Below are positions 27,765 through 31,229 of a stretch of DNA of 32,001 nucleotides, piece by piece (the first letter of the stretch is position 1; each line of letters opens with the position of its first letter). Below the pieces are notes generated by a model. It did no database searches and had not been told where the DNA came from. It saw only the letters and a program-made list of their open reading frames with translations. The stretch covers positions 1 to 32,001 of the forward strand of contig JAAYMI010000038.1 in the NCBI GenBank assembly GCA_012521465.1, written 5' to 3'. The position numbers were made by a program, and so were the translations under genes. The DNA comes from Bacillota bacterium (lineage in GTDB: Bacteria > Bacillota > Limnochordia > Darwinibacteriales > Darwinibacteriaceae).

Positions 27765-29108
27765 TTACAGAAGGATGACCTCCACTATTTTGAAGTAAAT
27801 CAGAAGGCCCGCGGCATCCACAATGGTGGTAATCACCGGCGACGCCATGATGGCCGGATCCGCATTTACCGCCTTGGCCAGAATGGGCAGGATCCCGCCG
27901 ATTGTTTTGGCTACAACTACCACCGCCATCAAACTGACGGAAACAGTGGCCGCTAGTACTGGGTCACCGGGATACATGATCATGACCCTCGCGAAGTTTA
28001 AGGCCGCCAAAAGCCCGCCAACCACTAAGCTGATGCGGAACTCCTTCCAGAGGACTTTGAGGAAATCGCTCGGCCGGATTTCATCCACCGCCATGCCCCG
28101 GATTATGAGGGTGGCACTTTGGGAACCAGCATTTCCCCCTGTGTCAGTGAGCATGGGAATAAAACTTACCAGCAGCGGAACAGCCAAAAAGGCGTTCTCA
28201 TAGCGCTGCAGAACAATTCCGGTGATTGTCGCGGAAAGCATCAACACTGCCAACCATACGGCCCGATTTCTCGCCAAAGTCCAGACGTCTGTCTTTAGAT
28301 ACGGCCGCTCAGATGGACTGGTCGCCGCCATCAACTGGAAGTCTTCCGTAGCCTCTTGGGTAATGACTTCCACAACGTCATCGACGGTAACGATGCCCAC
28401 TAACCGGTTTTCCTGGTCCACCACGGGCAGAGACAATAAGTCATACTTGGCAAACAAGCGGGCGACTCGCTCTTGGTCATCGGTGGTAGTAGCCGAGATA
28501 ATCTTGGTGTCCATGATATCCGCAATTAAGGTGTCATCGGATGCCAAGAACAGCTCTCGGACGGTGATCACGCCCTCTAAGTGGCGGTTTTCGTCCATGA
28601 CGTAGCATGTATAGACGGTCTCGCGATCCACCGCGTCCCGGCGAATGCGGGCAAAAGCCTCTTTCACCGTCATGGTTTTCTTGAGGCCCACAAACTCCGC
28701 AGTCATAATACTGCCTGCCGAGTCTGGAGGATATTGGAGGAACTGATTAATCAAAGCTCGCACGTCAGGGGAGGCATTCTTGAGGACTCGCTTGACGACA
28801 CTTGCGGGCATTTCTTCCAAGAAGTCAGCCGCATCGTCCACAAACAAGTCGTTGATGATGTTCGCGATCTCCTGATCAGTGATGGAGCGGATAATCTTTT
28901 CCTGCATGTCGTAGGAGAGGTAGGAAAAGACCTCTGCGGCCGTGTCCTTATGCAGCGCGCGAAAAGCGATCACAATGTCCTCTCCCGCTAACCCTTCAAT
29001 AAAACCAGCCACGTCGACCACGTTCAACTCTTCCAACTGCTCTTTCAGTGCCTTAAGCTGCCGACCCTTCAGCAGCTCGAGCAGCGCAGGGTATTCTCTT
29101 GCTGGCAT
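27765..29108 (-). CDS. mgtE: Magnesium transporter MgtE
   Basis: This 447-aa protein has the standard MgtE layout: a helical N domain (about 1-130), two CBS domains (about 138-255, including SAGSIMTAEFVGL, LFAKYDLLSLPVVDQENRLV and GIVTVDDVVEVI) and five membrane segments from about 285. The pore region has FIPMLTDTGGNAGSQSATLI and VVVVAKTIGGILPILAK. The N and CBS domains sense cytosolic magnesium and close the channel. The ATG at 29108 has AGGAGGAGG upstream. The 210-nt gap before it contains a structured leader (29144-29269). It is converged upon by galK. Confidence 0.95.
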   Translation of the reverse strand: MPAREYPALLELLKGRQLKALKEQLEELNVVDVAGFIEGLAGEDIVIAFRALHKDTAAEVFSYLSYDMQEKIIRSITDQEIANIINDLFVDDAADFLEEMPASVVKRVLKNASPDVRALINQFLQYPPDSAGSIMTAEFVGLKKTMTVKEAFARIRRDAVDRETVYTCYVMDENRHLEGVITVRELFLASDDTLIADIMDTKIISATTTDDQERVARLFAKYDLLSLPVVDQENRLVGIVTVDDVVEVITQEATEDFQLMAATSPSERPYLKTDVWTLARNRAVWLAVLMLSATITGIVLQRYENAFLAVPLLVSFIPMLTDTGGNAGSQSATLIIRGMAVDEIRPSDFLKVLWKEFRISLVVGGLLAALNFARVMIMYPGDPVLAATVSVSLMAVVVVAKTIGGILPILAKAVNADPAIMASPVITTIVDAAGLLIYFKIVEVILL

Positions 29109-29143
29109 GTTTTTATCCTCCTCCTTGGTAGGTTAAAACCAAT

Positions 29144-29269
29144 CGGAGCGACAAAAACGGACAGCAAAGCCTGGACAGCGCGCTATGCCAGACGAAGGGC
29201 GCGAGTGAGCGGCCCGCTAGTTTGGCATGAACATCGCTGGTCTACATCGCTGTCCGTTTGAGCGCTTCG
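29144..29269 (-). ncRNA. Structured leader RNA upstream of mgtE, possible novel regulatory element
   Basis: The 210-nt gap between lonC and mgtE contains nested inverted repeats. An 11-bp perfect pair joins 29259-29249 (5' side of the RNA) and 29165-29155, and outside it a 7-bp pair with one mismatch joins 29269-29263 and 29150-29144. The same 5' strand can instead pair over 8 bp (29255-29248 with 29180-29173), because GCTGTCC occurs twice on the 3' side. An inner 6-bp stem joins 29228-29223 with 29190-29185. The 5' side also has a 9-nt direct repeat (CAGCGATGT, at 29252-29244 and 29239-29231). The outer 3' strand runs into TTTTT. These alternative pairings look like a switch. The conserved M-box strings are not seen. 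Confidence 0.5.
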
Positions 29270-29318
29270 ACAATCAGGAACCACTCATCTCACCCCTTTG
29301 CGTAGGAATTAGCCCTGC

Positions 29319-31229
29319 TTAGTTTGCCACGGGAAGCTGCAGCCGATCAAAACTGCTGCCTAAAATGGCCTCCAAAAACTGGGCAGCTGTTTTGATGGGC
29401 ACAATCTCCACCACAGTGGACTGTTCTGATATTTCATCCCAGTTATCCTGGGGGACGAACACTTTTTTCACTCCCGCCTGCCTGGCACCGTAGATCTTGG
29501 GATGCAGGCCGCCCACAGGCTTGACGTTCCCTCGAATGGAGAGCTCCCCAGTAACGGCAATATCCTGGGGAAGGGGAATCTGCCACACAGCGCTGATGAT
29601 AGCTGCCAAGATTGCCACCCCGGCAGAAGGACCGTCGATGTTGCCTCCGCCAACTACATTGACGTGGATATCATAGTCCGAGAGCTGTCTGCCAGTAAGG
29701 CTGCGGAACACAGCTGCCGCGTTCGCCACGCTGTCCTTAGCCATGGATCCTGCGGTATCGTTGAAGCGAATTGCGCCCTTACCTGGTGCACTTGCGGGAA
29801 AGGCCACCGCTTCAATCTCCAAGACGGAGCCCACGTAGCCGCTGACTCCCAACCCTAGAATGCGGCCGACCTCCTTGGTAGGAGATGCTTTGACGCCCAC
29901 ATACGGACTGAGGCGGGCCGCCTGAATCACCTGCTGGACATCGGCAGTGGAAATGACTAGATCAGTCAAGTCTCCCTCTTCCCGCTTGTACAGAGCTGTA
30001 TTATAGGCATCAGCCAAGAGGCGGGCTGCCTGGCGCCCTTCAATGGTGTACTCTGAGATCATCTGGGCGGCGCCGTCTTCCAGCTTGGCCCCGAGGCGTA
30101 CAGCCGCGGATTCCACAATCGCGACTATGTCCTGCGGAGTCAGGGGATCAAAGAACACCTCCGCGCAGCGGGAACGAAACGCGGGACTGATCTCAGAAGG
30201 ATCCCGGGTGGTGGCACCAATCAGGACGAAATCAGCCGGTGCACCTTCTGTGAAGAGTTTATGGATGTACTTAGGGATCTGGGGATCATCTGGATCATAG
30301 TATGATGATTCAAAGGTGACGCGCTTGTCTTCCATGACTTTTAGGAGTTTGTTCTGGAGAATTGGATCCAGTTCCCCAATCTCGTCAATAAACAGCACGC
30401 CGCCGTGCGCCTGAGTCACAAGCCCAAGCTTGGGCTCAGGTACCGCCCCATCCGCGAGGTCACGGCGCGCGCCTTGATAGATCGGATCATGCACCGAGCC
30501 CAAGAGAGGGTTGGTCACTTCCCGAGGATCCCAGCGCAGGGTTGTACCATCCACTTCAATAAACGGCGCATCCTCCCCAAACGGAGTGTAGCTTTTCGCT
30601 TGGGCGTACTTAAGGGCCAACCGCGCCACCGTAGTTTTCCCCACTCCAGGAGGGCCGTACAGCAGAATATGCTGGGGAAAAGGAGAGCTGACCTTAGCAA
30701 GGAGCGAACTAATGGCGCTTTCTTGGCCCACCACTTCTTCCAAAGCCTTGGGGCGCATCAGCTCTAGAGTTGACCGGGACAACTGCTTCTTTTCCAGCAT
30801 TTCCAGTTCCGCATACTTCTTCAGTGTCTGGGCGTTGTCCGGTCCCCCTTCTTCCTTGAGAACCTGCTGCCGGATCTCTTTGAGATATTCTAGATGCCGT
30901 TCCTGCATTTTGGCACTAATCTTCTTTTCCAGTTTTTCCTCAAGGGTACGGCGCGCCAAGAGATCCGCGAGGTGTTCCTCCAAATCTTCGAGCATATCCG
31001 GGATTTCATCGAGACTGCGAGCTTGATCGATGGTAGGGTCTTCATGAACAATGCGTTCTAGTGCAAGTACTCTTTCCTCCAATTTCTCAGAACGCATCAG
31101 GTTTAGCGAATCCAATTTGCCAGCTTTGAGAACCAGTTGATCTGTGCCGTGAATCTCGGCAAGTACGGCAAACAGGGCGCTAACCTGCCTGTCAAGAGAA
31201 TTTGAGTCAGTCGTTTGATGTGTCAGCAT
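29319..31229 (-). CDS. lonC: Spore-former-type Lon family ATP-dependent protease LonC
   Basis: This 636-aa protein has an N-terminal coiled coil (about 70-155), an AAA+ ATPase (ILLYGPPGVGKTTVARLAL, GVLFIDEIGELDPILQNKLL, IGATTRDPSEISPAFRSRCA) and a C-terminal Lon protease domain with the catalytic serine in NIDGPSAGVAIL and the lysine in PVGGLHPKIYGARQAG. It lacks the N-terminal Lon substrate domain, as in LonB and the spore-specific LonC subfamily. The ATG at 31229 follows GGGAGAGGG. It lies after rplI in the same direction, the usual clostridial order, but dnaB, which normally follows, is about 7.6 kb away. Confidence 0.92.
   Translation of the reverse strand: MLTHQTTDSNSLDRQVSALFAVLAEIHGTDQLVLKAGKLDSLNLMRSEKLEERVLALERIVHEDPTIDQARSLDEIPDMLEDLEEHLADLLARRTLEEKLEKKISAKMQERHLEYLKEIRQQVLKEEGGPDNAQTLKKYAELEMLEKKQLSRSTLELMRPKALEEVVGQESAISSLLAKVSSPFPQHILLYGPPGVGKTTVARLALKYAQAKSYTPFGEDAPFIEVDGTTLRWDPREVTNPLLGSVHDPIYQGARRDLADGAVPEPKLGLVTQAHGGVLFIDEIGELDPILQNKLLKVMEDKRVTFESSYYDPDDPQIPKYIHKLFTEGAPADFVLIGATTRDPSEISPAFRSRCAEVFFDPLTPQDIVAIVESAAVRLGAKLEDGAAQMISEYTIEGRQAARLLADAYNTALYKREEGDLTDLVISTADVQQVIQAARLSPYVGVKASPTKEVGRILGLGVSGYVGSVLEIEAVAFPASAPGKGAIRFNDTAGSMAKDSVANAAAVFRSLTGRQLSDYDIHVNVVGGGNIDGPSAGVAILAAIISAVWQIPLPQDIAVTGELSIRGNVKPVGGLHPKIYGARQAGVKKVFVPQDNWDEISEQSTVVEIVPIKTAAQFLEAILGSSFDRLQLPVAN

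Follow-up and report, generated by a model that had tools for sequence, protein, structure and literature searches.

In Firmicutes, the textbook regulator of mgtE by Mg2+ is the M-box (ykoK leader, RF00380), which provides Mg2+ control of mgtE-type genes in Bacillota. A different principle, that of ribosome-destabilizing leader peptides, is known from enterobacteria. The MgtL leader peptide, which precedes mgtA in E. coli and Salmonella, has an EPDP motif, and ribosome drop-off in low Mg2+ has been proposed for it (PMC11282234). In the Salmonella mgtC-mgtB operon, the acidic codons of MgtQ abort translation, which frees the mgtB RBS via alternative stem-loops, and it has been argued that low Mg2+ favors this abortion (PMC8092293). 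Ribosomes of B. subtilis stall at Asp-Pro and polyacidic stretches (PMC11381351). A structured mgtE leader with its SD in a stem has also been reported as the Thioalkalivibrio mgtE motif (PMC11109978); this is a riboswitch candidate with 32 examples from Thioalkalivibrio only and no described uORF, and it was compared by description only.

The leader studied here occupies a gap before mgtE in a window of 32,001 nt (the whole stretch of DNA that was analyzed) from a bacterium of the Darwinibacteriaceae. We read this gap as a translation-controlled mgtE leader in which an upstream ORF (uORF) acts as sensor and three helices as switch, operating through Mg2+-dependent ribosome abortion (probability about 0.66). 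Its principle matches those of MgtQ and MgtL. As in MgtQ, a short ORF with early acidic codons precedes a Mg2+ transporter gene, and alternative stem-loops that overlap the ORF expose or hide the transporter RBS. MgtQ, however, has 8 codons and lies within an enterobacterial operon, whereas the uORFs of Bacillota mgtE leaders have 26-42 codons and are accompanied by an additional helix through which the uORF shuts off its own start. MgtL likewise has an acidic/proline start and a Mg2+ importer downstream, and peptides such as MDTGPLPRRR from Tissierellia are similar to it in look, but its target is a P-type ATPase gene and its mode of action Rho-dependent termination, in contrast to the apparent SD sequestration here. 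The phylum, mgtE as target, the start that closes itself and the tandem arrangement with M-boxes are new, and no description of such a uORF before mgtE in Firmicutes was found in the published open-access literature. If the reading is correct, ribosome-destabilizing leader peptides would extend to another phylum and transporter family, Mg2+ sensing via ribosome stability would appear to be general, and self-closure of the uORF start would be an added design feature. Many lineages without a recognized M-box before mgtE would then have a second, translation-based sensor there, and a few would have it beside an M-box.

The uORF and its peptide

The gap between the Lon-type protease gene and mgtE is 210 nt long. 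The genes, the uORF and its signals are as follows.

27765-29108, minus strand: mgtE, Mg2+ transporter/channel of 447 aa (Pfam MgtE 3e-35, MgtE_N 7e-27, two CBS domains)
29319-31229, minus strand: Lon-type AAA protease gene upstream of mgtE, context only (Pfam Lon_C 8e-31)
29183-29284, minus strand: leader uORF of 33 codons, GTG start at 29284, TAG stop at 29185-29183, MVPDCRSAQTDSDVDQRCSCQTSGPLTRALRLA
29293-29299, minus strand: Shine-Dalgarno-like AAAGGGG of the uORF, from its sequence and the purine block conserved in leader alignment A1
29240-29254, minus strand: acidic motif Asp11-Ser-Asp-Val-Asp15 (DSDVD), codons 11-15, proposed to destabilize the ribosome

The earlier note had proposed a structured, switch-like cis-regulatory mgtE leader; all the elements that it listed are present, and the structure is borne out by the fold. 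The 126-nt leader segment on the minus strand reaches -60.3 kcal/mol (z -5.6, with 0/200 shuffles as good), and the full 210-nt gap folds with z -3.9. The plus strand folds equally well (z -6.0), as expected for a palindrome-like element; because energy alone cannot decide between the strands, the strand was assigned from the uORF and mgtE. A pattern scan of the leader gave no sigma-70 promoter.

That the gap encodes a conserved uORF under coding constraint is well supported computationally, its translation being predicted. The frame stays open in relatives, and indels between close pairs of the same family are multiples of three. Thirteen close pairs give a pN/pS of 0.54 for the uORF frame vs 0.85 for each of the two alternative frames, and stop-containing codons number 0 in the uORF frame vs 29 and 33 in the others. 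This uORF, the helix at its start (reaching 29301) and the hairpin at the mgtE SD (down to 29109) had been missed by the earlier note. This locus has several marks of an MgtL/MgtQ-type leader: a constrained short ORF directly upstream of an MgtE gene, early acidic codons in the form of DSDVD, and, by computation, exclusive structures that couple translation of the ORF to the downstream gene.

The peptide begins with MVPDCRSAQTDSDVDQ and ends with LRLA*. Across leaders, uORF peptides have 26-42 residues, an acidic-rich start and a variable end. In leaders of the same type as this one (type I), 20 of the 21 peptides have the pattern [DE](x)[DE] within residues 2-20, compared with a mean of 9.4 after shuffling (0/2000). 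When all types are pooled, 41 of 47 peptides have an acidic residue 2; in this genome it is Val, which is not acidic. In one subgroup (L041, L043, L045, L071), acidic residues are scarcer in the middle of the peptide. Peptides beginning MDSGPLP, MDPSPLP, MDADPDD, MDPLP or MDIDQSPVP resemble the ribosome-destabilizing start of MgtL. The peptides are short and variable, and the likeness of MDSGPLP to MgtL may be convergent.

The same uORF switch could in principle answer to another signal, such as the overall state of translation, EF-P/ABC-F activity or one particular charged tRNA. Proline and acidic codons are affected by EF-P and ABC-F factors as well, and in Salmonella, mgtP answers to charged tRNA-Pro (PMC8092293). 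The uORF peptides, however, have no amino acid common to all of them; the recurring feature is an acidic/proline stretch early in the peptide, which in the scan is seen only before mgtE and is sometimes in tandem with an M-box. The run of codons for a single residue that marks an amino-acid attenuator of the trp type is likewise not common to the peptides in the table. A signal other than Mg2+ is thus unlikely, although the uORF would work in the same way.

Helices A, P1 and S

Three helices involve the uORF, the RNA beyond its stop and the mgtE start.

29277-29301, minus strand: 5' arm of helix A, comprising the uORF SD and start codon, in duplex with 29191-29216
29191-29216, minus strand: 3' arm of helix A, uORF codons 23-32, in duplex with 29277-29301
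29249-29266, minus strand: 5' arm of P1, AGCGCTCAAACGGACAGC, within the uORF at about codons 7-12 (RNAalifold, pair changes, permutation)
29147-29165, minus strand: 3' arm of P1, GCTGTCCGTTTTTGTCGCT, 3' of the uORF stop (RNAalifold, pair changes, permutation)
29145-29158, minus strand: 5' arm of the S hairpin, GTTTTTGTCGCTCC, overlapping the P1 3' arm, present in the MFE fold
29109-29124, minus strand: 3' arm of the S hairpin, GGAGGAGGATAAAAAC, from the mgtE SD to the start codon, near-invariant in alignment A1

Helix A pairs the late part of the uORF with the uORF's own start. Its duplex has -32.1 kcal/mol here (z -4.6), and in most type I leaders its target begins near codon 23. The mean z is -3.4 over 49 leaders vs 0.05 over 61 ordinary control genes that were tested identically. 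To evaluate covariation, permutation tests of helix A and P1 compared the pairing of each arm with its own partner and with a relative's partner; these statistics ignore phylogeny. For helix A, 0/20000 permutations were as good within its own family, 0/20000 in type I and, separately, 0/20000 in Tissierellia. An example of cognate pairing is AUGAGUGG/CCGCUCAU vs AUAAGUGG/CCGCUUAU.

P1 corresponds to the helices of the earlier note and has 17 bp in its best members. The 11-bp perfect helix described there is present on the minus strand (AAACGGACAGC, 29259-29249, with GCTGTCCGTTT, 29165-29155), as is the outer 7-bp helix (CGAAGCG, 29269-29263, with CGCTCCG, 29150-29144, including one G-U). The repeats it listed were also recovered: GCTGTCC occurs twice, from 29179 and from 29165, 14 nt apart, and the 9-nt direct repeat CAGCGATGT lies at 29252-29244 and just downstream. 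Covariation among related mgtE leaders, which that note had named as a check, was found. In the P1 alignment, 89.7% of the cells are paired and double changes occur at 8/17 pairs; RNAalifold, unaided, returns P1 together with the CUCC/GGAG part of S. For P1, 1/20000 permutations were as good within the family and 0/20000 across the type I leaders as a whole, and the negative control, P1 in Tissierellia, gave 16359/20000. Covariation of helices A and P1 is thus well supported computationally. The two helices cross each other, as a pseudoknot or as alternatives, and the energies permit them to form together or alternately (helix A at -32.1 and the remainder at -58.4, vs -84.4 without A, loop costs uncounted).

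The third helix, S, is the pairing of GUUUUUGUCGCUCC with the mgtE SD and spacer GGAGGAGGAUAAAAAC, and it masks the mgtE SD in every leader examined. The 3' arm of P1 contains the nucleotides that form S (GUUUUUGUCGCUCC here, GUUUUUAUACUCC in relatives), and S and P1 compete for them. With the 5' arm of P1 left free, opening the mgtE start costs 5.8 kcal/mol here; with that arm blocked, as a ribosome would do, it costs 18.6. The means of 14 leaders are 4.2 and 12.9 kcal/mol for a free and a covered arm. This competition was computed in 19/19 leaders, and in 17/19 the real P1 arm outdoes all 12 shuffled arms. The inner CUCC/GGAG pairs persist in either state, so that the probability of an unpaired SD, taken alone, depends little on the state; a better measure of accessibility is the cost of opening the entire SD-AUG stretch, and this revealed the competition. 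At equilibrium, this leader folds with S alongside the inner portion of P1, and the switch is therefore a shift in opening cost rather than all-or-none. The mutually exclusive helices that the earlier note had expected are found in this computed form. For the Tissierellia equivalent, the calculated effect is weak and uneven, and the output there is therefore not firmly claimed.

The T run of the earlier note exists (T5 at 29157-29153), but it is common to P1 and S, and a pattern scan gave no short-loop terminator at it. An attenuator, in which P1 with its U run, or Rho, halts transcription and S is secondary, would account for the UUUUU at the end of P1 and for the nested hairpin and U run in several Lachnospiraceae leaders (L046, L062), and has a precedent in MgtL, which operates through Rho (PMC11282234). 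The P1 loop, however, measures about 90 nt, P1 pairing with compensatory changes runs past the U run, where a terminator does not need it, the nested hairpin of L147 is without a U run, and S covers the SD in all leaders examined. Control by transcription attenuation is therefore quite improbable.

Proposed mechanism and the place of Mg2+

The leader most likely works as follows. When Mg2+ is sufficient, ribosomes would translate the entire uORF, and those crossing codons 23-32 would hold helix A open, leaving the uORF start free for the next ribosome. Ribosome traffic across codons 6-13 would at the same time block P1; without P1, GUUUUUGUCGCUCC would be free to form the S hairpin with the mgtE SD GGAGGAGGAUAAAAAC, and mgtE would be OFF. 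When Mg2+ is low, ribosomes would drop off or stall at DSDVD (codons 11-15), short of the 3' arm of helix A. This arm, left unread, would let helix A shut the uORF start, and the ribosome-free codons 6-13 would pair with the RNA beyond the stop to form P1. Since P1 takes the strand needed by S, mgtE would be translated (ON). Each ribosome has to complete the uORF if the start is to remain open for the next one, and the switch should therefore be self-reinforcing. Abortion at the acidic codons, the Mg2+ signal, the on/off polarity and an output that is translational, not transcriptional, are steps that we infer; the Mg2+ link is suggested by the controlled gene, the character of the peptide and analogy.

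Direct sensing by the RNA was also considered. Within the 32,001-nt window, the M-box model RF00380 had no match at gathering score or at E<=10, and the same search finds M-boxes in L074, L149 and L152 (132-156 bits), which served as positive controls. The earlier note was right that this is not an obvious M-box. NiCo, yybP-ykoY and other Rfam riboswitches gave no match either, apart from a chance snoZ278 at E=1, and its suggestion of a divergent M-box or NiCo-like aptamer is not borne out, there being no such Rfam match at gathering score or E<=10. A new riboswitch class, with A and P1 as a Mg2+-dependent pseudoknot and the ORF incidental, would fit the strong conserved helices, the crossing topology and the mgtE downstream. 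Against this, the leader has no conserved unpaired core, its interior is free to change in both sequence and length but preserves the reading frame, and Rfam gives no match. Mg2+ that stabilized A and P1 would, moreover, turn the importer ON at high Mg2+. We consider such a riboswitch very unlikely. Of the new Mg2+-responsive class put forward earlier, the magnesium part probably stands, but the sensor is most likely a translated leader ORF and not a ligand-binding RNA.

Distribution of the leader in Bacillota

Model R1 was built from this family alone. It matches strongly in 14 of 23 same-family genomes, always at mgtE and once per genome, and also in a second family of the same order (G027, E 8e-23). 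In Diplocloster and Pseudoflavonifractor, the top genome-wide match is exactly the mgtE leader, and mgtE leaders of Lachnospiraceae and Oscillospiraceae have the same plan. Other R1 matches in the phylum are weak (E about 1e-5 to 1e-3) and appear to be due to chance; the strongest of these, L182, spans a coding region.

The 11-bp inverted termini and the good folding on both strands had also raised the possibility of a MITE or decayed palindromic repeat. The element, however, has a single copy in this genome, each family genome with a strong R1 match has it once, at the mgtE leader, and it is syntenic and covarying in relatives. A repeat of this kind is thereby refuted.

Five same-family relatives (L037, L039, L047, L063, L109) have mgtE without the leader, and one family genome has a degenerate copy; the leader is therefore a removable regulatory module. 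In the same five relatives, a promoter-like stretch immediately precedes mgtE.

An automated scan of gaps of at least 120 nt found a self-closing uORF (z < -2.5) before mgtE in 42/73 Bacillota gaps vs 1/117 before other genes. In the same scan, residue 2 was acidic in 46 of the 73 mgtE gaps and in 3 of the 117 others. A second uORF type, M(D/E)(S/T)(G/S)PLP..., occurs in mgtE leaders of Tissierellia (L079, L080, L081, L087-L099, L101, L103, L111). These leaders have a plan of four segments, namely the uORF start, the complement in the late uORF, a 3' hairpin arm and the mgtE SD. Their output logic is less clear than in the type I leader studied here.

In L074 (2646-2808), L149 (1149-1311) and L152 (1082-1251), an M-box is followed by an acidic/proline uORF (MDPSPLP..., MDADPDD...) and then by mgtE. 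The M-box and the uORF are thus distinct modules, and the position of the uORF between M-box and mgtE ties the module to Mg2+ independently. These loci are candidates for two stacked Mg2+ sensors. Taken together, we consider it reasonably probable that a widespread Mg2+-sensing leader-peptide family exists in Bacillota, distinct from the M-box and sometimes stacked behind it. In this family, the uORF would close its own start site unless ribosomes reach its end, and stochastic ribosome abortion would be turned into a sharp, self-reinforcing mgtE switch.

In L046, L062 and L057, strong hairpins lie within the mgtE leader or after it, and some of them precede U runs, which suggests an extra transcription terminator in the Lachnospiraceae/Oscillospiraceae versions. 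A lysine riboswitch (L111, 1225-1408) and a T-box leader (L146, 632-871, minus strand) lie near mgtE and are unrelated.
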